DNA of 64,000 bases from Candidatus Chlorohelix allophototropha (GTDB taxonomy: Bacteria; Chloroflexota; Chloroflexia; Chloroheliales; Chloroheliaceae), in NCBI RefSeq assembly GCF_030389965.1, contig NZ_CP128401.1:248001-312000 (forward strand). Direction: 5' to 3'. A program made the position numbers and the translations under genes. The stretch's first letter is position 1. Every line of letters starts with the position of its first letter. This document shows, one piece after another, positions 24,312 through 45,030 of the stretch. A model generated the notes under the pieces. It did no database searches. It had not been told where the DNA came from and worked only from the letters and a program-made list of their open reading frames with translations.

Positions 24312-24391
24312 AATAAGGGTAAAAATAATTTTTCAAACGGACAATATTTATTTTTCTGAACTAATTAATATTTGAAAGCAAGGTTACATTG

Positions 24392-25987
24392 ATGTCAGAC
24401 AAGCAAACAAATACGTGGTTGACTCGCCGCAAATTCGTCAGGATGGCGTTGTTAGCTTCTCCTGCTCTTGCGCTAATAGCGTGCGGGGAACAGCCCACCG
24501 CCACACCTCAGCCACAAACACAACAGCTACTAAATACTCCAACCTCAACCCCTCAACCTCAGCCGCAGACACAGCCTACAGCCGTATCTACTGTACAAAA
24601 ATCAGATTCAAAAAAGGCGCAAACCCCCACAGCCGGTATTGTATCGGTTAATCCGGCTTTTGCTATGCCAGAATTACTAGGGCGACCAACAAATAATTCA
24701 ATTGCGGTCAACATTGTACCGGTCAAAAAATTGGAATTATATGTTGAATATGGTACAGAATCGGCGAAATACACCGTACAGACCAAAACGATAATCGGCG
24801 AAGCAGCAACGCCGGTTGAAACGTTACTTGAAAACCTGCAACCTAATACACGCTACTATTACCGTGTAAGATACCGCGAACCCGGCGCAAGTTCTTTTTC
24901 AGAGGTTTTGGAAAACTCATTTGTTACACAGCGAGCTCCGGGTAGCGCCTTTATCTTTTCTATTCAAGGCGATTCGCATCCTGAGCGTCCCCAACAATTT
25001 GATGCGGATTTGTATATGCAGACGATGAAAAATGTTCAGGCGGAAGGAGCCGATTTTTTCCTTACTATAGGGGATGATTTCAGTGTAGATAAATTAAGTC
25101 CTCCTACTAAAGAGGGTGTAGAGCAGCTATACATCTATCAAAGGCAATTTCTAGCTCAAATAGGAAAAAGTTCGCCTGTATTTCTGGTAAACGGTAATCA
25201 TGAACAAGCGGCAAAATATCTTTTAGATGGTACGCCAAACAATGTGGCGGTATGGGCACAAAACGCCCGCAACAAATATTTTTCGCAGCCTGCGCCTGAC
25301 AACTTTTACAGTGGCGATACCCAAGCGGTGGAATTCATTGGACAGCTTAGGGATTATTACGCATGGACATGGGGCGATGCGCTGGTTGTTACGATTGACC
25401 CCTACTGGCATTCCGCTGTTCCGGTAGATAGCGTGCTTGGCGGCGGGGGCGATAAAAATATAGACCTATGGGACATAACTTTAGGAGATGCTCAATATCA
25501 ATGGCTAAAGAAAACTCTCGAAGAGAGCAAAGCCAAGTATAAATTTGTTTTTACCCATCATGTGCTTGGCACCGGGCGCGGCGGAACTGATATGGCGAGT
25601 CAATATGAATGGGGCGGAAAAAATAAAAAAGGCGTTTGGGAATTTGATAAAAAACGTCCCGGCTGGGAATTGCCAATTCACCAATTGATGGCGAAAAACG
25701 GGGTTACTATCTTCTTTCAAGGGCATGACCATGTGTTCGTAAAACAGGAATTGGACGGCGTAATATACCAATCACTGCCTGAGCCTGCTGACCCCAACTA
25801 TGCTTTCTATAACGCAGATGCCTATAAATCAGATGTGAAATACCCCAACACAGGGCATGTGCGGGTTTCTGTATCGGCACAGCAAGTTAAGGTTGAGTAT
25901 ATTAGCTCGGTTTTACCGAAAAATGAGACAAAAGAAAAGGCTAACGGGACGGTCATCTACTCATATATAGTTTTACCTAAAAACTAA
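24392..25987 (+). CDS. Tat-exported purple-acid-phosphatase-like metallophosphoesterase 1
   Basis: The ATG at 24392 is chosen over a TTG just before it. The protein of about 531 residues starts with T-R-R-K-F-V-R and a hydrophobic stretch ending L-I-A-C-G, a combined Tat and lipoprotein signal. After a Pro/Gln/Thr linker comes a fibronectin-like N-domain (P-N-T-R-Y-Y-Y-R-V-R-Y) and then a metallophosphoesterase domain with G-D-S-H, T-I-G-D-D, V-N-G-N-H-E, F-T-H-H and Q-G-H-D-H. These supply the binuclear metal site. It likely cleaves phosphate esters outside the cell. Confidence 0.9.
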   Translation: MSDKQTNTWLTRRKFVRMALLASPALALIACGEQPTATPQPQTQQLLNTPTSTPQPQPQTQPTAVSTVQKSDSKKAQTPTAGIVSVNPAFAMPELLGRPTNNSIAVNIVPVKKLELYVEYGTESAKYTVQTKTIIGEAATPVETLLENLQPNTRYYYRVRYREPGASSFSEVLENSFVTQRAPGSAFIFSIQGDSHPERPQQFDADLYMQTMKNVQAEGADFFLTIGDDFSVDKLSPPTKEGVEQLYIYQRQFLAQIGKSSPVFLVNGNHEQAAKYLLDGTPNNVAVWAQNARNKYFSQPAPDNFYSGDTQAVEFIGQLRDYYAWTWGDALVVTIDPYWHSAVPVDSVLGGGGDKNIDLWDITLGDAQYQWLKKTLEESKAKYKFVFTHHVLGTGRGGTDMASQYEWGGKNKKGVWEFDKKRPGWELPIHQLMAKNGVTIFFQGHDHVFVKQELDGVIYQSLPEPADPNYAFYNADAYKSDVKYPNTGHVRVSVSAQQVKVEYISSVLPKNETKEKANGTVIYSYIVLPKN

Positions 25988-26008
25988 GAGCAATGGAAGG
26001 CAACATTG

Positions 26009-27568
26009 ATGTCAGATAAACAATCCCGCATGTGGGTAACTCGCCGCAAATTTGTCAGAATGGCGTTATTAGCTTCTCCCGCTATTGCGCTTATAGCTTG
26101 CGGGGAACAGCCCAATGCCACACCTCAGCCACAAACACAACAGCTACAAAATACTGCAACTTCTCAACCTCTAGCACAAAGGCAACCTACCGCCCAACCT
26201 TCTGTGCAAAAAACAGTTGCACAAACTTCCGTAGCAGGAAATGCAACAAGTTATTTTTTGGGCAAAGAACTGCTTGGGCTTATTACAGACCACTCAGTAA
26301 TGGTAAAATTAATGGCGGTTAAAGAGCTTGAAGCCTACATAGAATTTGGAACAGATAGCGGAAAATACACTGCAAAAACGAATCCGGTAGTAATTGAGAA
26401 AGAAAAACCTTTTGAACTTTTAATAGATAATCTTAACGCCGATACGCAATATTATTATAGATTGCTTTACAGGATGCGAGGAGATAGCGCCTTTCTCGCC
26501 GGGAATGCCTACAGCTTTCACACACAGCGAAAGCCCGACGAAACTTTTACTTTTACAATCCAAGCCGACTCTCATCGGGATGAGAATACCAACGAGGAGC
26601 TTTACCGGAGAACGCTTGCCAACATACTGGCAGATAAACCAGATTTTCACATTGACCTTGGCGATACATTTATGACGGAAAAGTTCGCAAAAACTGAAGG
26701 AGAGGTTATTAACCGGTATGTGGAAGAAAGACAATTTTTCGACCTCATCGGTCATTCCATTCCACTTTTTCTGGTCAATGGAAATCACGAAGGTGAAAAC
26801 GGATGGATGCTGAACGGTAAGGCAAATAATCTTGCGGTATGGGCTTCAAACGCTCGCAATACATATTACTTGAATCCAAAGCCTGACAGTTTTTATTCAG
26901 GAAACGGAAAAGAGGAGAATTTTGTTGGCAAGCGGGGCGGTTACTATTCATGGGAATGGGGCAATGCTTTGTTTGTGACGCTTGACCCGTTTTGGTATTC
27001 AACCAAAAAATCCAGTTCATTTGAGACAAACTGGAATTACACATTGGGCAAAGAGCAATATGACTGGTTTAAGGGCATTCTTGAAAAAAGCAAGGCTAAA
27101 TATAAGTTTGTTTTTAGCCATAATCTGGTAGGGGGTTCTGATAAGGATGCCAGAGGGGGAATAGAGCCAGCAAAATACTTTGAATGGGGCGGCTTAAATA
27201 ACGATGGAAGCTACGGGTTTGATAAAAACCGTGCCAGATGGGGCAAGCCAATACACCAATTAATGGTGGAGAACAAAGTAACCGCTTTTTTTCATGGGCA
27301 TGACCACTTTTTTGCAAAGCAAGAATTGGATGGAATTGTATATCAGTTAGTACCACAACCCGGAAACCCCGGCTACAATAAAAAAGACCAAGGTGCGGAA
27401 TATGGCTATGTAAATGGGGTTCTTATGCCTCCAGCCGGACATATACGGGTTACTGTTTCAAACTTAAATGTAACAGTGGAATATGTAAGGGCTTATCTGG
27501 CAAAAGATGAAAACAAGGACAGAAAAAATGGGGAATCAGCATACACGTATGTTATGGTGTTCGATTAG
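26009..27568 (+). CDS. Tat-exported purple-acid-phosphatase-like metallophosphoesterase 2
   Basis: A tandem paralogue of the previous gene, 21 bp downstream. The signal region M-S-D-K-Q-x, T-R-R-K-F-V-R-M-A-L-L-A-S-P and L-I-A-C-G-E-Q-P is nearly identical, whereas the catalytic domain has diverged. It keeps A-D-S-H, L-G-D-T, V-N-G-N-H-E, F-S-H-N and H-G-H-D-H. The Asn in F-S-H-N replaces the second His of the first copy, which may shift metal or substrate choice. Confidence 0.9.
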   Translation: MSDKQSRMWVTRRKFVRMALLASPAIALIACGEQPNATPQPQTQQLQNTATSQPLAQRQPTAQPSVQKTVAQTSVAGNATSYFLGKELLGLITDHSVMVKLMAVKELEAYIEFGTDSGKYTAKTNPVVIEKEKPFELLIDNLNADTQYYYRLLYRMRGDSAFLAGNAYSFHTQRKPDETFTFTIQADSHRDENTNEELYRRTLANILADKPDFHIDLGDTFMTEKFAKTEGEVINRYVEERQFFDLIGHSIPLFLVNGNHEGENGWMLNGKANNLAVWASNARNTYYLNPKPDSFYSGNGKEENFVGKRGGYYSWEWGNALFVTLDPFWYSTKKSSSFETNWNYTLGKEQYDWFKGILEKSKAKYKFVFSHNLVGGSDKDARGGIEPAKYFEWGGLNNDGSYGFDKNRARWGKPIHQLMVENKVTAFFHGHDHFFAKQELDGIVYQLVPQPGNPGYNKKDQGAEYGYVNGVLMPPAGHIRVTVSNLNVTVEYVRAYLAKDENKDRKNGESAYTYVMVFD

Positions 27569-29767: not shown

Positions 29768-30730
29768 ATGCCTTCTTTACAGAAAAAACAGGCTCAGATT
29801 GAGGTTGCGGATAATTCTACTCCGACTTCTTCTCAATCAGAACACTTTGTGCAAATCCCGGTCAATATAATTGCGAACCCAAACCTCACGCCAGCAGCCC
29901 TCAAGCTTTACCTAGTGCTGATGGCTTACTGCGGACCCAAACCCTGTGCCTGGCCCTCTCAAGCCCGGCTGGCAGAGGAAATGCATATCACTGAAAGACG
30001 GGTGCGCGACCTGTTGAAAGAACTAACAGACGAAGGGCTGATAACGGTGGCACATCACATGGGCGCTACCAACACCTATTACGTGGATAAGCATCGGGTG
30101 AAGAAGCAGCCAGTACCACCACTACCGGTGGCCCAGCCGGAAATATATTTCCGGGGTGAGGAAGAAAATTCCCGGAGGGATAGGAAATATATTTCCGCCT
30201 ATATACATGAATTAAATCATGTGTGTGAAGAGCCACTTTCTGAAATCGCTTTTAGCGAAATCGAAGATACCGATAATGCCACTCCTTTACCGGAAGTTTC
30301 TTTTCCTGCTCCTACACCAGAAACAGGAGAAATGAGAGAGATTAGAGCTTTGTTGGCACCCTCCGGTTTGTCAGAAAGCCTTATCCAAGAGTTAGCAGTA
30401 TTCGTGACCAGCAAGAACCGGGACGTGGAGTATGTCAAGCGCATAGTACAGGCAAGCCAAGTATCCGGTATCCACAACCCTCCCGGTTATGTTCGCTATA
30501 TGCTTTTGAACAATGCTGAACCTGTACCAGTCAAGGAGAGCAAGTCGGTCAAAGAGAGCCGAGAGCGTAAGAGCCAGCCTAAGAGTCCTGCGGCTATAGA
30601 CTTTTCCAAGTACGCTCCCGGTGGTAAGTATGGCTATTTGGTGAGGGCAACGGATACGGAATCGCCTATACTGGGAGATGGCAGGGGGCGTTTTGTGCCT
30701 GAGGCGGGCAGCTACGCACCACGGCTTTAG
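29768..30730 (+). CDS. Winged-helix Rep-like protein (HTH_36 type)
   Basis: The 320-residue protein has an N-terminal domain with F-V-Q-I-P-V-N-I and a winged helix-turn-helix (about 40-115: W-P-S-Q-A-R-L-A-E-E-M, R-R-V-R-D-L-L-K-E-L, G-L-I). The middle is a low-complexity linker, and the C-terminal ~60 residues are basic and serine/lysine-rich. This layout is typical of plasmid replication initiators and phage replication proteins of the HTH_36 group. It converges on parB, so it and parAB may form the replication-partition core of a plasmid or integrated plasmid. GGGAGG precedes the ATG. Confidence 0.75.
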   Translation: MPSLQKKQAQIEVADNSTPTSSQSEHFVQIPVNIIANPNLTPAALKLYLVLMAYCGPKPCAWPSQARLAEEMHITERRVRDLLKELTDEGLITVAHHMGATNTYYVDKHRVKKQPVPPLPVAQPEIYFRGEEENSRRDRKYISAYIHELNHVCEEPLSEIAFSEIEDTDNATPLPEVSFPAPTPETGEMREIRALLAPSGLSESLIQELAVFVTSKNRDVEYVKRIVQASQVSGIHNPPGYVRYMLLNNAEPVPVKESKSVKESRERKSQPKSPAAIDFSKYAPGGKYGYLVRATDTESPILGDGRGRFVPEAGSYAPRL

Positions 30731-30798
30731 TTTATTTTGCTGGCAAACTGGAAAAGGCGTTTGCGTGGTAGCAATGGTTCTGCTCTCGGCTTTTATGC

Positions 30799-30862
30799 GT
30801 AGCAGTTCAGACCAGTAGCTTGGGAAGACGAGATTGCCTACAAAAAGTGTCAAGGAGTGCTA
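30799..30862 (-). mobile_element. Vestigial end of an IS66-type element
   Basis: This 64-bp stretch matches the left end of the complete IS66-type element (34423 onward), starting at GTAGCAGTTCAG versus GTAACAGTTCAG. On the minus strand it still reads L-A-L-L-D-T-F-C and L-P-K-L-L-V before a stop, matching the transposase C-terminus. Similarity ends at the same base where the complete copy ends, which supports that boundary. Confidence 0.75.
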
Positions 30863-30979
30863 ATAACAAAAATTGGTAGCATCTCAATAATCCGAAGCAA
30901 CTCGAGGTTTTCAAATGAAAATGAGCTCAATTGCAAGGCTCTACAGCACTTTTGCCACGAAAACCTGAGAGGACACACC

Positions 30980-32059
30980 TTAGAGGTTTTTTAGGGCGGC
31001 TAATCGCGCTAAAATATCTTCCAGAAGAAATTCGTCTGCCTCTGTTAGCTGGTTAAAATCTTGCCTGACTAATTTTTCAAGACCTTTCATAGCGTGTAGA
31101 AGACTAGAAAGAGCTTCCGGTACGTTTTTAGGCTCCTCTACATTAATGTAGAGTGCGTAACGACCCTCGCTTATTTCTTCAGCCGAGCCATATGAATCGG
31201 CATATTGATTGTGAGATAAATCACTATTCGGATACTGTATCCGATCTGTGATATTTTTCACATTAACTTGAGGGTCTTCTCCGTGCTTTTTCTGTTTCTT
31301 TTCTCCACTACTTCCTTTGGAGGACTTCAGATGCTTTTCCAACTTCTCCCGGGTGAGTTTTCCTGAAACCACTTGGTCAATCAGGCTGGTCCTTTCAGCA
31401 GGGTCGTCCACTTGGAGAAGTAGCCTCACATGGCCTAGGGTTTCTGGTTTTTTTTCCACCAACCCTCTTATATCAGGGGGTGCCTGATAGAGACCCAACC
31501 GAAGTTTTACCCATCCTTCGCCTTTTCCTACAGTTCGGGCTATCTCGGGTATAGAAAGGTTTTGCTGATCATATAGGTGTCCGATGATACTAGCTTCACC
31601 AGTAGGGGTGAGGTCTTCTCTGGAAAAGTTCTCGCTCGCCATTATCCTGGCCATTTGAGCATCCGATAAATCCACTATTCGTACCGGAAGGGTAGTAAGT
31701 CCTGCTCTCTTTGCGGCCTCTTTACGTCGGTGTCCAAAGGCCAGTTCGTATTCTTCCAAAAGACCACGCTTTCGTCTGGCAAGAAGAGCCCCGTAGAAAC
31801 CGTTCTGTTGGATAGAGTTCACCAGTTCTTCCATAGCCGCTTCATTTACACTGGGTCTGGCCAAATGCTGGAATGGGTTGTCCGATAAATGATTAACAGC
31901 AACTTCTCCGATTGGCATATTCTGAGTCTCTCGTTCCAGTTCTTCTCTGAGATCTTCTCCAAACGGGCGCTCTTGTCCTTCTCTGATTTTTTCTCCACGC
32001 AACACCACTTCCCGGTTGGTGAGCTTGTTCATAGCGTTTTTAAAGTCTTTAGATGGCAT
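30980..32059 (-). CDS. parB: ParB/Spo0J partition protein
   Basis: A 359-residue ParB with the nuclease-like N-domain (N-P-F-Q, then G-H-R-R-K-E-A-A-K-R-A-G, the CTP/arginine patch), the conserved M-A-S-E-N-F-S-R-E-D-L-T-P and E-A-S, and the HTH region G-K-G-E-G-W-V-K-L-R-L. The acidic C-terminus should dimerise. It lies 15 bp downstream of parA. ParB binds parS sites and loads onto DNA; no canonical parS is visible, but the palindrome at 34022-34046 is a candidate. Confidence 0.93.
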   Translation of the reverse strand: MPSKDFKNAMNKLTNREVVLRGEKIREGQERPFGEDLREELERETQNMPIGEVAVNHLSDNPFQHLARPSVNEAAMEELVNSIQQNGFYGALLARRKRGLLEEYELAFGHRRKEAAKRAGLTTLPVRIVDLSDAQMARIMASENFSREDLTPTGEASIIGHLYDQQNLSIPEIARTVGKGEGWVKLRLGLYQAPPDIRGLVEKKPETLGHVRLLLQVDDPAERTSLIDQVVSGKLTREKLEKHLKSSKGSSGEKKQKKHGEDPQVNVKNITDRIQYPNSDLSHNQYADSYGSAEEISEGRYALYINVEEPKNVPEALSSLLHAMKGLEKLVRQDFNQLTEADEFLLEDILARLAALKNL

Positions 32060-32074
32060 CTTTTATTCTCCCTC

Positions 32075-33106
32075 TTAGCTCCCTACTGGTTCAGGTAGCT
32101 GTATCCTCTGGCAAATTTCATTTACCATCGTTCGATAATCCTCAGCCACGGCGCTGTCGGTTGCGTACACAGGGAGGGGGGTTGCCATCGCCTCAGACTC
32201 GCGAGCTAGGGTGGATCGCCTAATCTCGGTCTTGAAAAGATGATTAGGATAGCTTTCCTGTGCCACCTCCCGTACATTTTGCATAATCCGTGTGCGATCT
32301 ACCATAGTGAGAAAAAGACCAAGGAATTGGTTGTTCGAGTTATAGTAGTTAGCGTTTTTCCTTGCCACCGCCAGTAAAGCTTTTACCGAACGGAGAGCCC
32401 AGGGACCATTTACCGGGATTAAAAACCAGTCGGAGGCAGCGAGGACGTTTACTGAGAACTTTCCTAAGTTAGGTGGGCTATCTAGAATTATGAGATCGTA
32501 ATACTGACGACTAGGGCGGAGCGCCATGCTGAGCCTGAGATCGCTACCACTCTTTCCGGGTAACATCATTTCTACTTCTGCAAGATCTACTGAGGCAGGT
32601 ACGAGATCTACTCCTGGATAACCAGTGGAAACTGCAACCTCGTGCGCCACGGCTTTTTCTAAGTAGAGGTCGGAGACGGTTCCATAACTAGGACCTACTT
32701 CAATATCTAGAAGGTCAATGCCTAGCTGGAGGCTCACATTGCCTTGGGGATCGTTATCTATAACAAGTACCCGGTAGCCCCTCTCTGCGAAAATAGCAGC
32801 AATGGCAGCTGCGGAGCTGCTTTTTCCAACTCCACCTTTCTGGTTACAAAGTCCTATGGTTATTCCATGGTGTGCCCCGTTCTTCATAAATTTCCCCTCC
32901 ACTTCTTCCCCAATTATTTCTTCCAATTCCCGACCAGAGCGCGATTTATATTCGGCGAGGTAGGTCTTAAAACTATCGCTCTGATCATCTACCATACGTA
33001 TTCCACCCACTTTTTCGGCACGGAGGATTCCTCGGTGAATAGCGGCTCTGAGAGTCGAGGTGGGAATTCGATGTTCAAGTTCAATTTCATGCAATGTCTT
33101 ACGCAT
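32075..33106 (-). CDS. parA: ParA partition ATPase with N-terminal DNA-binding domain
   Basis: The ATG at 33106 has AAAGG 10 bp upstream; the longer frame to 33160 overlaps the antirepressor gene. The 343-residue protein starts with a short helix-turn-helix-type segment (I-P-T-S-T-L-R-A-A-I-H-R-G-I-L), as in type Ia ParA proteins that also repress their own operon. The deviant Walker A K-G-G-V-G-K-S-S is near residue 91, with D-N-D-P-Q-G-N and L-I-I-L-D-S-P-P later. It moves plasmid or chromosome copies apart together with ParB. Confidence 0.92.
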   Translation of the reverse strand: MRKTLHEIELEHRIPTSTLRAAIHRGILRAEKVGGIRMVDDQSDSFKTYLAEYKSRSGRELEEIIGEEVEGKFMKNGAHHGITIGLCNQKGGVGKSSSAAAIAAIFAERGYRVLVIDNDPQGNVSLQLGIDLLDIEVGPSYGTVSDLYLEKAVAHEVAVSTGYPGVDLVPASVDLAEVEMMLPGKSGSDLRLSMALRPSRQYYDLIILDSPPNLGKFSVNVLAASDWFLIPVNGPWALRSVKALLAVARKNANYYNSNNQFLGLFLTMVDRTRIMQNVREVAQESYPNHLFKTEIRRSTLARESEAMATPLPVYATDSAVAEDYRTMVNEICQRIQLPEPVGS

Positions 33107-33119
33107 TCTGGTTGTACCT

Positions 33120-34004
33120 TTAATCTTTTGTAGATGGTATGAGTGATTTGTACCAATCATTTAACCACTCTATGGCATCCTTAAATTTTGAGGAAGGAAG
33201 CTGCTTATAGCTGGCAATGCCATAGCGTTGGTAGAGAGCCAGAAAGACACGTTGGTAGGGATTGCCTTCTTTTTGATCCCGACGTGCTAATTCCCCTGCC
33301 ACCTCTTTTACTGCAAGACTAATTTCGGTGGCTTGTTCTTCAGTGAGGGCACCAACTGAGGTGCGTTCTTCCAAGTGTTTAATCCTAGTAAGGGCTTTGC
33401 CTACCACCCCTGCTGCGTTATCCACTCGCTCCTTCAATTTCTCCACTTCTTCTCTAGTAAGAAGTTGGTCTCGGGAAAGCATCTCCTGCCTATCTGATAG
33501 GTAGCTCTGCTGTTGTTCAAGTGCAAGCTGTTCATCTGCTAGTTGCACTAGAGCCAGCCCGATTTCGCGGAGGCTTACTAGGTTTTGAAAAGAAGCAGAA
33601 AGGCTGGGTTCCGGGGCTAGTTCCCTTAAAAAGGCCTCATATACCTTTTGTACCACCCACTTTTTATATGCTTTCAGTTTATCTTGCAGCTCCGGTTTTA
33701 CTTTACCTATCGTTATCCCAGCTAGCCAGTAGGGAACTACTTCTAGCCGTAAGAACTGTATATCGCGTAAACCTTGGGTTGTTTCCACTGGGAACTCTTG
33801 TAGTTCTTCTGCAAGGGACTCTTCACGTTTTATACGACGTATCTGAGCAGCACGATCCAGGCCTAAATATTCGCATAACACATTAACAGGTAAGAAAATA
33901 GCCCCATCTTCCAAACGATAAGCGGGCAGATTGTCTTCCAGTATCTGCACTTCTTTTCTATCACGAATTTTGAGAGGAGTTTGTTGAATGTCATTCTGAC
34001 TCAT
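33120..34004 (-). CDS. Phage antirepressor N-terminal-domain protein
   Basis: The 294-residue protein opens with an antirepressor/BRO-like N-domain: I-F-L-P-V-N-V-L-C-E-Y-L-G-L-D, R-I-K-R-E, then W-L-A-G-I. The middle (about 150-230) is helical and probably coiled coil. Such proteins bind DNA or repressors in phages and plasmids. AGAGGAAA precedes the ATG. It heads the operon with parA and parB under a perfect consensus promoter, and may regulate partition or copy number. Confidence 0.78.
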   Translation of the reverse strand: MSQNDIQQTPLKIRDRKEVQILEDNLPAYRLEDGAIFLPVNVLCEYLGLDRAAQIRRIKREESLAEELQEFPVETTQGLRDIQFLRLEVVPYWLAGITIGKVKPELQDKLKAYKKWVVQKVYEAFLRELAPEPSLSASFQNLVSLREIGLALVQLADEQLALEQQQSYLSDRQEMLSRDQLLTREEVEKLKERVDNAAGVVGKALTRIKHLEERTSVGALTEEQATEISLAVKEVAGELARRDQKEGNPYQRVFLALYQRYGIASYKQLPSSKFKDAIEWLNDWYKSLIPSTKD

Positions 34005-34021
34005 GTCTTTTTCCTCTGTTT

Positions 34022-34046
34022 AATGGGTGCCATTATGGCACCCATT
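34022..34046. repeat. 25-bp perfect palindrome upstream of the par operon
   Basis: AATGGGTGCCAT and its exact complement ATGGCACCCATT flank a single central T. It lies 18-42 bp upstream of the antirepressor ATG, downstream of the expected transcription start. It is a candidate operator, or the partition centromere, for one of the three encoded DNA-binding proteins. Confidence 0.75.
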
Positions 34047-34089
34047 CGCTGGTAATTATTTTTTAAGGTTTGATGGTTTGAAACGAAAT

Positions 34090-34128
34090 CGTTGCAAATA
34101 TTATAGCAACGGAAACGTTGCATGTCAA
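34090..34128 (-). promoter_or_regulatory. Perfect consensus promoter with CGTTGC operator hexamers
   Basis: On the minus strand TTGACA (34128-34123) is separated by 17 bp from TATAAT (34105-34100), an exact sigma-70 consensus. Three copies of CGTTGC/GCAACG lie at 34090-34095, 34106-34111 and 34116-34121, two inside the spacer and one just past the -10. Such a strong promoter is normally silenced by a bound repressor, so these hexamers are probable operators. Confidence 0.85.
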
Positions 34129-34422: not shown

Positions 34423-35926
34423 GTAACAGTTCAGACCAAAAGCTTGGGAAGGGGAGGATGCCCACAAAAAGTGTCAAGGAGCGCAACCAACAAGTTTTCA
34501 CCTTGCTTTTTCATGGTGGAAAGGTAGCCTCTTATCCGACAAAAGAAGCTGGCACCTTCCTGGCTGCGAAAACAACCTGAAACTTTTTGTTGCACTTTAA
34601 CCATCCGAATATCACGCTCGGCTAAATTGTTATCAAAAGGCACGTCAAAACGGTAGGCAAACAGCAGCACTTGATGACGCTGTTTATCCAGCCGATCCAG
34701 TAAGTTCTTAGGCTTGCTCTGCCGGGGCTTGCCCCGTTTTCCACAAGGCCAACCACCCTCCGGAGGAGGATTAGCTGCCAGACCCTGTGTGATCAATTGC
34801 TGGTAGCGCTCTTCGAAATGCGCTAACCGTGCACTGCTTAAACTGGTTTCAGACCTGGCCTTGGCGACTTCCACTTCTTCTTTCAAGTCCACAAGAAGGG
34901 TGGTGAACTCAGCCGCCCACGCCTGCTTGAGTTGTTCGTGGACAAAAGCAAGTTCCCTGAGATGATGGGCGTTACACAGACCGTGGGTACAGGCATAGCG
35001 CAGATAGTTAGACCAACCGTCGTGGATCGCTACTCCCTGGAAAGTCGGTAAAATCCCAATCTCGTCCGTGGCTTTACTACCACGCCGTAAATGGTGAGCA
35101 TAGTGGGTTAAGTAAAGGGTGCTGGCTACGTGCAACCAGTGGCGCTTGCCTTCTACATACAACCCGGTTTCATCGCAATGTAACACTTTGGCCTGGGTAA
35201 GCGCTGTCTTGATGGTTTTTTCTGGCTCAGCCAATTGCTCGTAGCACTCCGCTATCATATTGACCAAACTGCCGGGTGAAAGACTTTCGCTGTAGATTTC
35301 ATTAAGTAGCTCGCACACCCGGGCATAAGGCAGCAGTTGATAAGTGATCAGGTAAACTGCCAGAGCCCGAAACCCAGGTCCGTATTGCACCCAATTCTTG
35401 ACGGACTGCGGGAATTTGGCTTTGGTAACAGTCTGACAAGTAGGACACTTTTTGCTGTAAGTGCGGTGTTCGGTGACGTGCAGTTTGAGTTGAGTAGGCA
35501 GCTCAAAAACCTGACGAGGCTCGAAGTGAGGTAGCGCTGCTTCTTTGGTTAAGTCAGTCTGGCACTTTTCACAGGTGGTGGGCAGATGCGCAATCACTGC
35601 ATCTGGGTTTTCGCTTTGTTTAAGAGCCTGACCCTCGTGACCAGGTTGACCACCCGGTTTCTTACCGGTGGATTTACGCAAGCTGCGTTTTTTGGGCGAG
35701 CGCTTAAACCCGTCGGAAGAGGGTGGTTTTGATGAATTATGGCTATCTTGAGAGAGCCGGGCTTCAAGGGTTTGAATTCGCTCTATCAGTTGGGTAACCA
35801 AGGCATCCCGTGAAGTCAGTTGTTCTCGCAATTGGGCATTTTCTATTCTAAGTTGTTCTAGTTCTTGCGCAGGTGTCATTATTTTAGTCTACCAGCCTCG
35901 TCAACTGACCCTGGCTGATTTGTTAC
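34423..35926 (-). mobile_element. Complete IS66-type insertion sequence (ISBst12-like layout)
   Basis: The 1504-bp element begins GTAACAGTTCAGACC and its other end, read inward, is GTAACAAATCAGCCA, so the imperfect inverted repeats start with the GTAA typical of IS66. It is flanked by an exact 8-bp duplication AATGATTC (34415-34422 and 35927-35934), the size expected for IS66. It has a single transposase gene and no tnpA/tnpB. The intact ends and open frame suggest recent insertion. Confidence 0.93.
34431..35879 (-). CDS. IS66-family transposase (TnpC type)
   Basis: The 482-residue protein has an N-terminal leucine-zipper-like segment, a basic linker (K-P-P-S-S-D-G-F-K-R), a zinc-finger (C-E-K-C-Q near residue 100 and C-P-T-C-Q near 145), and a DDE catalytic core with H-C-D-E-T-G, C-N-A-H-H-L-R-E-L and the late D-N-N-L-A-E-R-D-I-R segment. 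The C-terminal G-C-F-R-S-Q-E-G-A extension fits the IS66 family. It spans nearly the whole element. Confidence 0.94.
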   Translation of the reverse strand: MTPAQELEQLRIENAQLREQLTSRDALVTQLIERIQTLEARLSQDSHNSSKPPSSDGFKRSPKKRSLRKSTGKKPGGQPGHEGQALKQSENPDAVIAHLPTTCEKCQTDLTKEAALPHFEPRQVFELPTQLKLHVTEHRTYSKKCPTCQTVTKAKFPQSVKNWVQYGPGFRALAVYLITYQLLPYARVCELLNEIYSESLSPGSLVNMIAECYEQLAEPEKTIKTALTQAKVLHCDETGLYVEGKRHWLHVASTLYLTHYAHHLRRGSKATDEIGILPTFQGVAIHDGWSNYLRYACTHGLCNAHHLRELAFVHEQLKQAWAAEFTTLLVDLKEEVEVAKARSETSLSSARLAHFEERYQQLITQGLAANPPPEGGWPCGKRGKPRQSKPKNLLDRLDKQRHQVLLFAYRFDVPFDNNLAERDIRMVKVQQKVSGCFRSQEGASFFCRIRGYLSTMKKQGENLLVALLDTFCGHPPLPKLLV

Positions 35927-39100: not shown

Positions 39101-40552
39101 ATGGCTCAAATCAAAAATAAAGAACTAGTAGCCAGACAAATTAAAGATGGACTGCGGGCAATCGCCTCTCACACTACCAAAACAGTGGAACGGGTAGACC
39201 AAGATATTGCGCCCCAACTTGCCATTGAAGCCCGCACCCTTAAAAGCTGGAAAACCCCCAGCGCTATCCCGGATAACATTGATGAAGACAAACTTCTAGG
39301 ACTGATATGGTTGATACTGGAACACGGTGGGCTGAGTTTAGCTTGGCTTACTACTTTACTCTCGGCTACTTCTTTACCGGTAGTTGACCCTCCCACGCCT
39401 AGTTGGGTACGCTCTTATCTTAAAATAGCTAGAGTGGCAAGTGGCGCAGGAAGTACTCCTTTGTCAGAAAGTGCTATCGAAAGAACCATTGAACACCTTT
39501 TCTATAACGGTATTACTGGCATTCCTTCTTCTCCCGCCTCCACCCACCTCCTAGAATTTCCAGATGGGATAATGTCGCCGGAATCCCCTTTCTACATCGA
39601 ACGTGCCTCTGATACTGTGGCTTTAAATACGCTTAAGTCGCAGGGCGCTGCCCTAGTAATTAAAGCCCCTCGGCAGATGGGTAAAAGCTCTTTACTTTTG
39701 CGGATTTCTAGATTGGCGGAAAAACTGGAGAAGCGGGTGGTTCTTATGGATTGCCAACGCTTTGACAAAGCCGCCCTAACTAATCCTGATCTGTTTTATC
39801 GACTTTTTTGTGGTTGGCTGGGTAATCTTCTGAAGCTGGATAATCGAGTAGAAGAATTCTGGTCTGAATTTCCGGGAAATATCCAACATTGCAGTAACTA
39901 TTTAGAGGAGTATCTGCTCCCCGAACTAAATTCCCCGCTTGTGCTGGCTATGGATGAGGTGGATCATCTATTCGATACACCCTTTCGTTCCGATTTTTTT
40001 GGAATGCTCAGGAGTTGGCATAATGCTCGACAGTTGAGCCATATCTGGAAGAATCTGGATTTGGTATTGGTAACCTCCACCCAGCCTTACCAGTTTGTGC
40101 AGGATTTGAATCAATCTCCCTTTAACGTGGGGATAATATTGGAATTGGAAGATTTTACGCCGGGACAGGTAGCCGAACTCAACCGACGACACGGTTACCC
40201 CTTTCTAGCAGAAGAAGAAGCGAAACTAATAGAGCTAACCGGAGGGCAACCCTATCTGACGCGGCAGGCTTTATATATGGTAGCCAACGGGAGTTATACC
40301 CCTGACCGACTGTTTGAGAAAGCAAATGATGAGTATGGTCCTTTTGGAGAACATCTCCGCTACTACTTTCAACGCTTGCATCATAACCCTCAATTGGTAG
40401 AGGGCTTACGCACTACTATTCTTGCCAACACCTGCTCTGACGAAACCACTTTCTGGAGATTACAAGGAGCGGGACTGGTGAGGCGGCATGGAAAAAAAGT
40501 AATACCCCGCTGCAAACTATATAACGACTACTTTAGAGAGAGGCTATTATGA
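39101..40552 (+). CDS. STAND-type AAA-like ATPase without C-terminal repeats
   Basis: The 483-residue protein has an N-terminal helical domain (about 1-110) with R-V-D-Q-D-I-A-P-Q-L-A and L-G-L-I-W-L-I-L-E-H-G-G, a segment seen in several Chloroflexota STAND proteins and possibly an HTH or adaptor fold. An AAA-like (AAA_35 type) domain follows: Walker A A-P-R-Q-M-G-K-S-S near 188, Walker B L-V-L-A-M-D-E-V-D near 285, and G-G-Q-P-Y-L-T-R near 385. It overlaps the next gene by 4 bp. It probably forms a heteromeric ATPase with that partner. Confidence 0.82.
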   Translation: MAQIKNKELVARQIKDGLRAIASHTTKTVERVDQDIAPQLAIEARTLKSWKTPSAIPDNIDEDKLLGLIWLILEHGGLSLAWLTTLLSATSLPVVDPPTPSWVRSYLKIARVASGAGSTPLSESAIERTIEHLFYNGITGIPSSPASTHLLEFPDGIMSPESPFYIERASDTVALNTLKSQGAALVIKAPRQMGKSSLLLRISRLAEKLEKRVVLMDCQRFDKAALTNPDLFYRLFCGWLGNLLKLDNRVEEFWSEFPGNIQHCSNYLEEYLLPELNSPLVLAMDEVDHLFDTPFRSDFFGMLRSWHNARQLSHIWKNLDLVLVTSTQPYQFVQDLNQSPFNVGIILELEDFTPGQVAELNRRHGYPFLAEEEAKLIELTGGQPYLTRQALYMVANGSYTPDRLFEKANDEYGPFGEHLRYYFQRLHHNPQLVEGLRTTILANTCSDETTFWRLQGAGLVRRHGKKVIPRCKLYNDYFRERLL

Positions 40553-43500
40553 CATTTCACTACCAAGGTGGTGGCACTCTTTCACCGGATAGCGAACTAT
40601 ATATCTCCCGGCAGGCTGATAAAGAACTTTTGGAATTATGCCAGAAATCCCAGTTCACCTATATTTTAGCGCCTCGGCAAATTGGCAAATCCAGCCTAAT
40701 GCTTCGCACTGCTCAGAAGCTTTCGCTTGAAGGAATAAAGGTAGTTAAACTTGATCTCACCCGGTTGGGTACACAGGTAGAAGCCGAAGGCTGGTATTAT
40801 GGATTTATGTATGAGGTGCGAAAACAGCTTGAGTTGAAATTAAAGCTGAGTGAATGGTGGGAAGAGAATAAGAACCTGAGTCTAGCACAGCGTCTTACCC
40901 TTTTCTTTGAAGAGGTACTTCTTTGTGAAGTAACTGCCCCGGTGATTATTTTTGTAGATGAAATTGATACTACCCTCAGTCTCTCTTTTACTGACGATTT
41001 CTTTGCGAGTATTCGAGGGTTATATGTAGCACGTGCCGGTAATCCTGAGCTTAAGCGGCTTTCTTTTGTACTGATAGGGGTGGCTACTCCCGGAGACCTT
41101 ATCCGTGACCCCAAACGCACCCCCTTTAATATCGGGCAACGGGTAGAAATGACCGATTTTACCTTTGAGGAAGCCTTACCTCTAGCAGGTGGTTTAGGTT
41201 TGCCAAATGTCGAAGCTCAGGAAACCTTAAAAAGCATATTGGAGTGGACGGGAGGGCATCCCTATCTAACCCAGAGACTTTGTCAGGTTATGGCAGAACA
41301 GAGCATGAGCAAAGCCAATTCACAAATTGGGGCTAATCTAAATACAACCCCCATAGTGGTAGCCAAAACTTTTCTGGGAGAGAAAAGCGAAGAGGACAAT
41401 AATCTACAATTTGTGCGGGACATGTTAACCCGCCGCGCCCCTGACCTTTTACAAGTGCTGAGTACCTATCGGGAAGTAAGACGAGCAAAAGAGGTGCTAG
41501 ACCAGGAACAATCCATAGTAAAATCTCACTTAAAACTTTCGGGTGTAGTAAAACGGGAACGTGGAAGGCTACTGGTAAGGAACCAAATCTATAAGACAGT
41601 ATTTGACGAAAAGTGGATAAAAGAACATCTACCGATCAATTGGGCTAAAAGGCTCAAGCAAGCGCTGGGAGTGATTGCAGCCACATTATTACTGGCATTA
41701 ATAATGGGAGGGTTGGCAATCTACGCTTTTATCCAGCAGGACGAAGCGGGTAAACAAGCAGATGAAGCCAATAAGCAGCGCAACACCGCTGAAACCAGAA
41801 GGATTGAGGCTGAAACTGCTCGAAACCAGTCGGATCGCTTACTGCGTGGGACAGAAGCGCAAGCGCTGGCATTTCGCTCTCAAACTCAGACCGACCCGGA
41901 ATTGGCTTTGTTACTAACCATTGAAGCCGCCCAGCGCATTCAAGATGGCAAACTGGAAGATAGTGGAGGACAGGTGGAAGCGGCGTTGCGCCAAGCTCTG
42001 GCAAATTACACCCCGAATATTGCCCTGCGCAGCCCGGCTACCGCAACGAACAGTGTTGCATTCAGCCCGGATGGAAAGCGACTGGTGGTAGCCGGAAATG
42101 ACGGTTATGCCAGAGTGTATGAGACAGGTACTAATAAAGAAATTATGTCATTGGGCGGGAAGTTCGGATCAGTCTATATGGCGAAATATAGCCCCGATGG
42201 CAGTATGGTCGCTACCGCCGATGCCGAAGGCAATACCATCTTTTATGAAACGGCCAGCGGGAAGCAGTTGGGAGACATAATAACTTGCCAATGTTTTTTC
42301 AACCAGATGGCTTTCAGTCCCGATGGTAAAATGCTGGCGGAAGGCCCGGGTAATCGCACCGCTCGAATACTCGACCCTATTGGCGGAAAAGTGTTATGGG
42401 AACAATTTGATGCAGGTGGTATCTATAGTCCGGTGTTCAGCCCGAACGGAAAATGGCTGGCAATAGCGAGTGGGAACCTCTTATTCCTGTGGGATCTTAC
42501 CAGTGGCACTATTCCACCGAAAGAACCTTATCATATAACCATAGGGTTTAAGACTTTAGTTACGACAAGCGCAATTTTCAGTCCGGATAGCCGCTGGCTG
42601 ATTCTAACCAGCACAGATTTTACTGCCCGAATCATTGATACTACCACCGGAAAGTATGTCGCTACCCTAAAACATAATGGCTTTGTGAATAATGCCGTAT
42701 TTACCCCGGATGGCAAACAGGTTTTAACCGCCAGCAGCGATAAAACCGTTAAAGTCTGGGAGACCGAAAGCGGCAAAGAACTGCTCACCTTCCAGAACCA
42801 TACCTCGGCGGTACAGGATGTGATTCTAAGCCCCGACGGTAAATTGGCAATTAGCACGGGCAATGACACCACCATCCGGGTGTGGGATTATGTCAGCGGC
42901 AAGGAGGTGACGGTGTTGAGAGGGCACGCTAGTACGGTGGCGAGTGCGCCAAATCATGCCGGATTAAGTTTTAGTCCGGACGGGAAATGGCTGGCTTCCA
43001 CCAGCAGCGATGGCACTGCCAGATTGTGGGACTGGGAAGCGCTTTCACAGAAACGCTTGATCTTAAACCCCAATACCGATCGTTTATTAAGCGCCAGTTA
43101 TAGCCCGGATGGTAAAACCGTATTTACGGTAGCAAATAATAACCCACCGCGTCTGTTCGATAGCGCCAGCGGCAAACAACTTCTAACCCTTCAAGGATTC
43201 TTAACCAATGGTCTCGGAATGCTCCAGTTTTACCCTTCAGAAGTGAGCCCGGATGGCAAATTGGCAGTTACTTCAGGTGGGTTTAACGATCAATCAACCC
43301 GGATTTGGGAAGTGGCTACCGGCAAAGAATTAGGTTTTCTCGATGGCGCTGCTTACACCGATTATGTGCTTGCCAAGAATAGCCTTATTTACGCAGATGT
43401 GAGGAAAGACCTGACCATTGAAATTCGGGATTTGGAAAAAGATTCGATATTACAAGGGGGCTTGAAAGGGCATCAGGCTGAAATAACCGGAATGGCTTTC

Positions 43501-45030
43501 AGCCCCGATTATAAGCTTTTGGGTTCAGCCAGCAAGGATCAAACCGCACGCATTTGGGAAGTGGCTACCGGCAAAGAGGTGGCGGTTTTGAAAGGGCATA
43601 ACGGGGCAGTTACGGGAATTGAGTTCAGTCCCGATGGAAAATATGTGGTCACCGCCGGAGAGGACAAGACCCTACGCTTGTGGGATACAACAAACTGGCA
43701 AGAAGTAAGAGTTATCCGGGGACATACGGCTGAGATCAGCAGTGTAGCCTTCAGTCCAGACGGTCAGACCGTTATTTCAGGAAGCGCTGACAAAACAGCG
43801 CGTATCTGGGAAGTGGCAAGCGGCAAGGAACTGCTGGTACTCAGTGGACACAGCGGGGGGATAACCAGTCTTGCGGTAAGCGAGGATGGCAAACGGATTG
43901 CTACTGCCAGCGAGGATGGAACTGCCAGAGTGTGGGATGCCGCCAATGGTACAGAACAAATGGCGCTGAGGGGGCATAGCGGGGCAGTAACCGCCGTATT
44001 TTTCAAGCCAGACGGGAGCCGGATCTATACCGGAGGGGCAGACAAAACCCTTCGGTTGTGGGACAGCGCCAGTGGTAAGGAAATGAAAATAACCACTGGC
44101 TTCACCAAACCCATCAAGCGTCTCTATACCTGCGCAACTTTTAAGGCTATTATGGAATCTGGCACTCCCGTTGATCAACCAATTGAAGACCCGGTCTGGG
44201 TGGTAAACGATGAAGTGTGGCGAATTTTCGATTTGTACTATGGCTATGGTTATGGATGGGTTCCCTTTGTTCCTACCTATACCGGCGCAATTTTCAGCCC
44301 GGACAGTAAATTGGTTGCCACCGGAGGGAGTGATGGGGTAGTGCGGTTGTGGGACAGCGCTACCGGAAAGTTGGTGCGCACCCTGGAAGGGCATACAAAT
44401 GGAGTGCTTTTAACGGGAAATGGCGGTTTCAGCCCGGATGGGCAACGAATTGTGGCAGGTGGGGGTGATAGTATCGCAATAGTGTGGGAGGTGGTTAGCG
44501 GTAAGCAACTCCTGACCCTGACCGGTCATAGCGATGGAGTTACGAATGCCACTTTCAGCCCAGACGGCAAGTTAATCGTCACCGCCGGGGCAGATAATAC
44601 CGCCCGTGTCTGGGATGCAACTACGGGTAAGCAGTTGCTGGTATTGAAAGGTCACACCGGAGCATTAAATACTGCTCGTTTCAGCCCGGATGGCAAGTTT
44701 ATTATAACCGCCAGCGCGGATAGTACTGCCCGCATCTGGGATACTGCATCTGGACAGTTGCTGGCGATAGTACTTGGGCATAACGGCCCGGTGAGCGATG
44801 CCAACTTCAGCCCGGATGGGAAAAACATCTTGACCGCCAGCGAAGATTTCACTGCCATCATTCAACCCTGCGATATTTGCGGTAGCTTTTCCCAAGCGCT
44901 GGAGCAAGCTAAAAATACCGTCACCCGTTCCCTCACCCCCGATGAAAAAGCCCAATTCGGGATAGCGACTGCGGCTGTTTTACCACTCAACCCAGTATCT
45001 CGCTGGAGTAGAAAACAAGAAAGAGCTTGA
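40549..45030 (+). CDS. STAND-type AAA-like ATPase with about 21 WD40 blades
   Basis: The 1493-residue protein starts with the same kind of AAA-like domain: Walker A A-P-R-Q-I-G-K-S-S near 43, Walker B I-I-F-V-D-E-I-D near 140, and G-G-H-P-Y-L-T-Q near 240. A membrane helix (about 370-393) and a coiled-coil linker follow. From about residue 485 to 1440 there are around 21 WD40 repeats with F-S-P-D-G-K and W-D/W-E signatures, enough for three seven-bladed propellers. A tyrosine-rich insert (about 1205-1250) splits one blade. Such proteins sense a ligand and switch on an effector; no effector domain is seen here. Confidence 0.88.
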   Translation: MTFHYQGGGTLSPDSELYISRQADKELLELCQKSQFTYILAPRQIGKSSLMLRTAQKLSLEGIKVVKLDLTRLGTQVEAEGWYYGFMYEVRKQLELKLKLSEWWEENKNLSLAQRLTLFFEEVLLCEVTAPVIIFVDEIDTTLSLSFTDDFFASIRGLYVARAGNPELKRLSFVLIGVATPGDLIRDPKRTPFNIGQRVEMTDFTFEEALPLAGGLGLPNVEAQETLKSILEWTGGHPYLTQRLCQVMAEQSMSKANSQIGANLNTTPIVVAKTFLGEKSEEDNNLQFVRDMLTRRAPDLLQVLSTYREVRRAKEVLDQEQSIVKSHLKLSGVVKRERGRLLVRNQIYKTVFDEKWIKEHLPINWAKRLKQALGVIAATLLLALIMGGLAIYAFIQQDEAGKQADEANKQRNTAETRRIEAETARNQSDRLLRGTEAQALAFRSQTQTDPELALLLTIEAAQRIQDGKLEDSGGQVEAALRQALANYTPNIALRSPATATNSVAFSPDGKRLVVAGNDGYARVYETGTNKEIMSLGGKFGSVYMAKYSPDGSMVATADAEGNTIFYETASGKQLGDIITCQCFFNQMAFSPDGKMLAEGPGNRTARILDPIGGKVLWEQFDAGGIYSPVFSPNGKWLAIASGNLLFLWDLTSGTIPPKEPYHITIGFKTLVTTSAIFSPDSRWLILTSTDFTARIIDTTTGKYVATLKHNGFVNNAVFTPDGKQVLTASSDKTVKVWETESGKELLTFQNHTSAVQDVILSPDGKLAISTGNDTTIRVWDYVSGKEVTVLRGHASTVASAPNHAGLSFSPDGKWLASTSSDGTARLWDWEALSQKRLILNPNTDRLLSASYSPDGKTVFTVANNNPPRLFDSASGKQLLTLQGFLTNGLGMLQFYPSEVSPDGKLAVTSGGFNDQSTRIWEVATGKELGFLDGAAYTDYVLAKNSLIYADVRKDLTIEIRDLEKDSILQGGLKGHQAEITGMAFSPDYKLLGSASKDQTARIWEVATGKEVAVLKGHNGAVTGIEFSPDGKYVVTAGEDKTLRLWDTTNWQEVRVIRGHTAEISSVAFSPDGQTVISGSADKTARIWEVASGKELLVLSGHSGGITSLAVSEDGKRIATASEDGTARVWDAANGTEQMALRGHSGAVTAVFFKPDGSRIYTGGADKTLRLWDSASGKEMKITTGFTKPIKRLYTCATFKAIMESGTPVDQPIEDPVWVVNDEVWRIFDLYYGYGYGWVPFVPTYTGAIFSPDSKLVATGGSDGVVRLWDSATGKLVRTLEGHTNGVLLTGNGGFSPDGQRIVAGGGDSIAIVWEVVSGKQLLTLTGHSDGVTNATFSPDGKLIVTAGADNTARVWDATTGKQLLVLKGHTGALNTARFSPDGKFIITASADSTARIWDTASGQLLAIVLGHNGPVSDANFSPDGKNILTASEDFTAIIQPCDICGSFSQALEQAKNTVTRSLTPDEKAQFGIATAAVLPLNPVSRWSRKQERA

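Follow-up and report, generated by a model that had tools for sequence, protein, structure and literature searches.

Introduction

The usual description of type I partition comprises two genes and a site. In its type Ia branch, which includes P1 ParA, F SopA and V. cholerae ParA2, the ParA ATPase carries an N-terminal DNA-binding domain and is encoded with ParB behind a promoter with an operator. Here we describe a type I partition operon of the phototrophic bacterium 'Candidatus Chlorohelix allophototropha' (Chloroflexota) that shares these parts, the DNA-binding domain being predicted, and departs from the type Ia plan in two ways. The N-terminal domain of its ParA is a short MerR/excisionase-like helix-turn-helix (HTH), while that of type Ia proteins is longer, and the operon contains a further gene, ant, for an antirepressor-family protein. 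The operon lies in a stretch of 64,000 nt (C3:248001-312000, contig NZ_CP128401.1), which we call the window.

The other systems closest to this locus come from phages and plasmids. In the immI region of phage P22 (arc-ant), an operator sits between the –35 and –10 elements of the promoter that drives the Ant gene. The window likewise has a spacer operator in a promoter driving an ant gene, yet no Arc was seen, the operator tracks ParA, and Ant is encoded on a chromid beside parAB. Phage antirepressors of the P22_AR_N / BRO-N / ORF6C kind have the same domain make-up and predicted fold as the window Ant; unlike them, this ant stands in a par operon, with no phage genes, structural ones included, among the eight flanking genes tested. 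Finally, some plasmid rep genes have the origin inside the coding sequence. The rep-like gene of the window resembles these in its paired internal repeats but differs in belonging to the HTH_36 family.

Results

Linkage of ant and parA in Chloroflexota

The strongest new result is the linkage of ant to parA. A profile of Ant matched 46 of 400 genomes of the phylum, with at most six candidates scored per genome. We examined 76 loci, the window among them, and counted L101/L166 and L181/L182, which look like near copies, separately. Left out were 20 listed places of the phylum search (five near-identical to G029, 15 weak), the weak fragments G001:C34, G003:C32 and G008:C32, and near-identical genomes. 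A parA gene was present in the stretch at 24/76 loci and lay within 2.5 kb of ant at 23/76, spread over 12 genomes. At these 23 linked loci, ant was downstream of parA in 13 and upstream in nine, and on the opposite strand in one, so 22 pairs share a strand. Counted by successive kb of gene-edge distance, the pairs numbered 14, 12, 0, 0, 0 and 1, at similar exposure. Because the pairs drop sharply beyond 2 kb, the link is to the neighbouring operon and not only to plasmids. A further case, not included in these numbers, is the metagenome-assembled genome Ww555 (L225), where parA overlaps a small gene by 8 nt and this gene overlaps ant by 4 nt.

The best reading of these data is that ant has been recruited to par operons repeatedly in Chloroflexota, and the pairing suggests that phage-type regulators were adopted into plasmid inheritance. 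If a third par gene of phage origin recurs within one phylum, mobile elements would have a new way of wiring partition to regulation; the finding also supplies a concrete set of operators open to test and bears on how replicons are kept apart in a genome of two chromosomes, a chromid and two plasmids. As judged from search listings of the literature, we found ant nowhere described as a par gene, in line with the sequence-only reading, which had not recognised the arrangement as a known one. That reading had also proposed a phage-type regulator of partition. The presence of such a gene in the par operon now gains phylum-wide support, whereas the DNA site to be assigned to it changes on comparison of the loci: the CGTTGC operator follows the ParA HTH.

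The ant-parA-parB operon

The genes are closely packed in the order ant-parA-parB (Table 1). Ant matches P22_AR_N at 6e-15 (55.8 bits against a cut-off of 30.7). ParA matches AAA_31 at 6e-38, with a KGGVGKS deviant Walker A motif and a Soj fold; its fold matches include the Vibrio ParA2 structures and the full-length plasmid ParA entries 3ez2 and 3ez9, which we take to be P1/P7 ParA. The adjoining ParB has ParB_N (8e-13) and HTH_ParB (6e-13), and the Rep-like protein has HTH_36 (3e-9) and a PHROG replication initiation match (6e-14). The first ATG of the parA frame overlaps ant, and homologues start at the residue matching 33106, 13 nt past the ant stop codon. The three genes form one operon, and not one polypeptide, that is probably cotranscribed. 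The initial description of this locus, with an antirepressor-like gene, parA and parB in one operon and a winged-helix Rep-like gene converging on parB, holds.

Table 1. Features of the ant-parA-parB operon and the convergent rep-like gene (window coordinates)
Feature	Position	Strand	Remarks
Promoter TTGACA-N17-TATAAT	34100..34128	-	Exact consensus; spacer motif shared with the homologous promoters that precede parA in L082 and L109
Operator O1, GCAACG-TTTC-CGTTGC, in promoter spacer	34106..34121	-	Perfect inverted repeat; kept with the ParA HTH at 3/3 loci
Operator O2, GCAACG-ATTT-CGTTTC, over the expected (putative) transcription start	34080..34095	-	One mismatch from the O1 pattern
Odd palindrome of 25 bp in leader, 18 nt before ant start	34022..34046	-	Perfect arms; class enriched before ant-family genes
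ant, P22_AR_N antirepressor-family protein, 294 aa	33120..34004	-	Domain matches, AlphaFold2 model; only copy in genome
parA, ParA ATPase, N-terminal winged HTH (predicted)	32075..33106	-	Open frame reaches 33160; start set by homologues
parB, ParB_N + HTH_ParB	30980..32059	-	Domain matches
rep-like gene, HTH_36, convergent with parB	29768..30730	+	Paralogues on C2, C3, C4, C5
CCGGAAATATATTTCCGG, candidate Rep/origin site inside rep	30137..30154	.	GGAA-N6-TTCC pairs in 5/7 rep genes of genome
Second GGAAATATATTTCC, 44 bp on, inside rep	30183..30196	.	One base differs on plasmid C5

A promoter operator that follows the ParA HTH

The promoter matches the consensus at 12/12 positions, and the pattern with no more than one mismatch occurs twice in the window against 0.35 expected. 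Its three exact CGTTGC/GCAACG half sites, seen already in the sequence-only reading, form O1 and, with a fourth, imperfect half site, O2, which lies 26 bp downstream of O1. Sites matching the operator pattern with up to two mismatches number three in the window where 1.99 are expected. By itself the pattern is therefore not rare, and the evidence lies in its position in the spacer and in its conservation.

ParA relatives were sought in 41 genomes, and the DNA before eleven, the window included, was read. The closest relatives fall in the same family of genomes. GYAACG-N4-YRTTRC occupies the 17-nt promoter spacer at three loci. Two of them are the window (TGCAACGTTTCCGTTGC) and G003:C41 (TGTAACGATTGTGTTGC), the latter with the promoter immediately upstream of parA; at the third, G002:C127 (CGTAACGCAAACATTAC), a small HTH gene stands between promoter and parA. 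In G003 ant is downstream of parB, and the G002 stretch is without ant. With the 80-residue N-terminus of ParA as query, matches were found in three of the five genomes of the order, at exactly the three operator loci. In G003:C66 and G002:C267, two family members whose N-terminus is of another kind, the promoter is similar and the spacer sequence differs.

In the predicted structure of ParA, approximately residues 20–75 form a separate strand-helix-helix-hairpin-helix unit at the N-terminus, with a predicted local distance difference test score (pLDDT) of mostly 81–88. It is winged-HTH-like by prediction and was aligned with the HTH_17 of L229/L095. Pfam gave no HTH match for the window ParA itself; HTH_17 was matched in related fusions, in L085 at 2e-15 and in L095 at 1e-5, the latter below its cut-off. 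Since the CGTTGC operator is conserved in relatives with ant downstream or absent, we assign it to the ParA HTH, and O1 is a probable site of autorepression by ParA.

Small genes also occur directly before parA. The one at L109:1487-1744 encodes the HTH that the window ParA carries fused, and the one at L087:2573-2842 encodes an 89-aa protein that looks HTH-like and has no Pfam match. Just upstream of the par promoter lies an IS66-type transposase gene, at 34431-35879 in the window and at L082:10865-12352 in the homologous locus of G003, where it was identified, without a scan, from the similarity of the gene start.

A leader palindrome associated with ant-family genes

The palindrome in the ant leader has perfect 12-bp arms around one base, as first reported. 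It is unique in the 6.09-Mb genome, where the closest other copy carries three mismatches. We counted palindromes in the 250 bp upstream of 88 ant-family open frames and of 577 other genes in the same stretches. Exact arms of at least 8 bp were found in 36/88 ant-family leaders versus 72/577 controls. Odd palindromes with the core YRTNAYR were found in 16/88 versus 3/577 (Fisher 1.7e-12, an optimistic value because the core was read from the same set in which it was counted), and two of the three control genes share an intergenic region with an ant. Counted without regard to the core, and so free of that bias, odd palindromes still differed (23/88 versus 25/577, 9e-10).

The association does not depend on parA. 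Half of the ants with a core palindrome (8/16) have no parA near by, and the 15-bp core of the window palindrome, GTGCCATNATGGCAC, is found again before L083 and L096, whose examined stretches contain no parA. Of eight ant loci fetched from genome G008, seven have such palindromes (L083-L087, L096 and L097; not L113), with mostly different arms. The 25-bp palindrome is a probable site of Ant action, as a DNA operator or an RNA hairpin. Separately, L205 has tandem AAGGGGGGACCATWATGGTCCCCCCTT palindromes ∼100–135 nt before an ant at 2741 (-), with no parA.

Structure and origin of Ant

The AlphaFold2 model of Ant (mean pLDDT 80, predicted template modelling score 0.41) has a BRO-N-like N-domain, a long helix and a C-terminal helical domain. 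It matches models of viral repressor, Ant and BRO-N proteins, with 31 BFVD matches at E ≤0.001. Comparison with solved structures by sequence gave nothing convincing, and Foldseek gave no match in the PDB at E 0.001. When the N-domain was compared with PDB chains, it resembled the Dachshund DNA-binding motif (Z 9.6) and, at Z 7.4, a presumably BRO-N-like N-terminal domain from a granulovirus protein. The C-terminal domain aligned with a chain of the 80a-Sak SSAP/SaPI2 Stl complex (Z 8.4, root-mean-square deviation 1.9, 66 residues); helical matches below about Z 13 may arise by chance, and this likeness is a lead only.

Relatives of Ant in phage contigs sit among genes that we read, from translations that were not scanned, as phage replication and packaging genes, which makes a phage origin of ant likely. 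Neither the DNA of the window nor the Ant protein had a match in a plasmid collection. A search with another ant brought up N-terminal relatives in six records; the three plasmid or phage-plasmid records viewed have phage genes near by and no par neighbours.

Regulation of the operon

From the gene order, the conservation of the operator with the ParA HTH, the association of the palindrome with ant and the ant-parA linkage, we infer how proteins and sites are paired, that repression occurs, and any effect of Ant on partition. On balance, we favour a chromid ParABS operon autorepressed by ParA to which an autoregulated, phage-type antirepressor gene has been added by recruitment. Two separable inputs would then regulate this type I (ParA/ParB) partition operon. 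ParA would shut its own promoter by binding, through its N-terminal winged HTH, the GCAACG-N4-CGTTGC repeats that lie within the spacer and across the start site, as in type Ia ParA proteins; that ParA represses its own promoter is suggested by comparison of the loci. The apparently domesticated ant, lying between promoter and parA, would have brought its own palindrome, through which Ant most likely regulates itself and, here, parA and parB behind it.

Several observations weigh against this model. The operator examples number only three. The core palindrome is absent before 72/88 ants, including the nearest linked relative, L082, and it precedes none of the six viral-contig ants. The ORF6C match of Ant is below the Pfam cut-off (18.2 bits versus 22), a match not required for the P22_AR_N assignment. 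Outside rep, no repeated palindrome that might serve as parS for this ParB was found in 24–42 kb of the window, and partition by this module is only putative because of that.

In addition, the palindrome could act as a hairpin in the 5'-leader RNA, setting translation of ant or messenger stability, rather than as protein-binding DNA. We regard this as a tentative alternative. RNA folding of the leader with the palindrome gives a z of –3.5, and the palindrome centre lies 26–34 nt before the start in eight loci, yet the central T-N-A is kept despite different arm sequences, and the first outer mismatch, G-T in 5/17 palindromes and A-C in 8/17, does not favour a sense-strand stem.

The favoured model could be extended by making Ant a third component of Chloroflexota partition that is specific to its replicon. 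The diversifying palindromes would then be identity or incompatibility sites that distinguish co-resident plasmids and couple copy or partition state to par expression. This extension is doubtful at present.

An unlikely explanation is that ant is a passenger, a functionless phage remnant that accumulates on plasmids and near par genes. At 52/76 ant loci there is indeed no parA in the stretch examined, and relatives occur in phage contigs and in three plasmid or phage-plasmid records that lack par neighbours. But the strand and distance of ant-parA pairs are constrained, ant lies 13 nt from parA in the window, and it overlaps the preceding gene by 4 nt in L225.

That this ParB uses the 25-bp palindrome as its parS centromere is improbable. 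The palindrome adjoins parAB and is unique in the genome, as a single parS can be, but its core stands before the parA-less ants L083 and L096, and the homologous par locus L082 is without such a palindrome. We set this candidate aside for its association with ant; binding of ParB there, considered earlier, is not what the distribution suggests, as the palindrome tracks the ant family rather than parB. Least probable of all is control of the promoter by Ant through the CGTTGC sites: ant is first in the operon and has a predicted DNA-binding-type fold, but the same spacer operator precedes parA in two relatives with ant downstream or absent.

The rep gene and candidate origin sites

Exactly two GGAA-N6-TTCC sites, 23–44 bp apart, occur in a similar part of the gene in five of the seven rep genes of the genome. 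Of the ten such sites on the whole chromid, four fall within its two rep genes, and the pairs are probably in-gene Rep/origin sites. The rep gene of the window is 83% identical in DNA over 1218 bp to L036:5891-6838 on the 55-kb plasmid, candidate origin sites included; co-resident replicons with near-identical rep genes would be expected to interfere. We also considered GGAAATATATTTCC as parS, which is less likely than a Rep/origin site because the sequence is kept in the rep of plasmid C5, with no matching ParB found in 18 kb there. A RepABC replicon was rejected: rep is convergent here, not in a repA-repB-repC operon, and its RP-C match is below cut-off.

Replicon and genomic setting

The genome comprises five contigs (2,961,161; 2,453,413; 375,274; 241,389 and 54,957 bases). 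The published description of the closed L227-S17 genome (PMC10972752) lists chromosomes of 2.96 Mb and 2.45 Mb together with three circular replicons, the chromid (375 kb) and plasmids of 241 and 55 kb. The sequence-only reading had taken the module for a plasmid maintenance core, possibly integrated; it is a module of a plasmid-like replicon, and the contig is the chromid itself; integration into a chromosome is not supported. Nor are these par genes sole chromosomal copies beside oriC. The window ParA has 11 matches within its own genome, and the chromid has three parAB pairs, at ∼20.9–22.8, 157.4–159.0 and 279.0–281.2 kb, and two rep genes, at 154.6 and 277.8 kb. Because of these three pairs and two rep genes, the chromid looks like a fusion of plasmid-type modules.

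Cumulative GC skew of the chromid peaks near 20 kb and is lowest near 198 kb. The ant-par-rep module was rejected as an active origin on this measure, as the extremes are not at 278–282 kb. Three perfect TTGTTTTCGCGAAAACAA sites, at L031:5924, 6846 and 8877 (C3 ∼19.9–22.9 kb), surround another chromid parAB; next to the skew maximum, they are likely parS. Paired palindromes also stand beside parAB on other replicons, TGTCTGTATATACAGACA at L035:10453 and 10537 (241-kb plasmid) and TGTACGTCYGGACGTACA at L041:5481 and 7200 (chromosome 2), and these pairs too are likely parS.

No RNA families were found within 26–37 kb of the window. The genes flanking the module are ordinary: a PBP-family protein, two phosphoesterases, a CpXC protein, the IS66 transposase, a peptidase, AAA_35 and WD40 proteins. 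The phosphoesterases, at 24389-27568, are a tandem pair of related Metallophos proteins. At 40549-45030, preceded by the AAA_35 gene (39101-40552), a protein of 1493 residues has many WD40 repeats.

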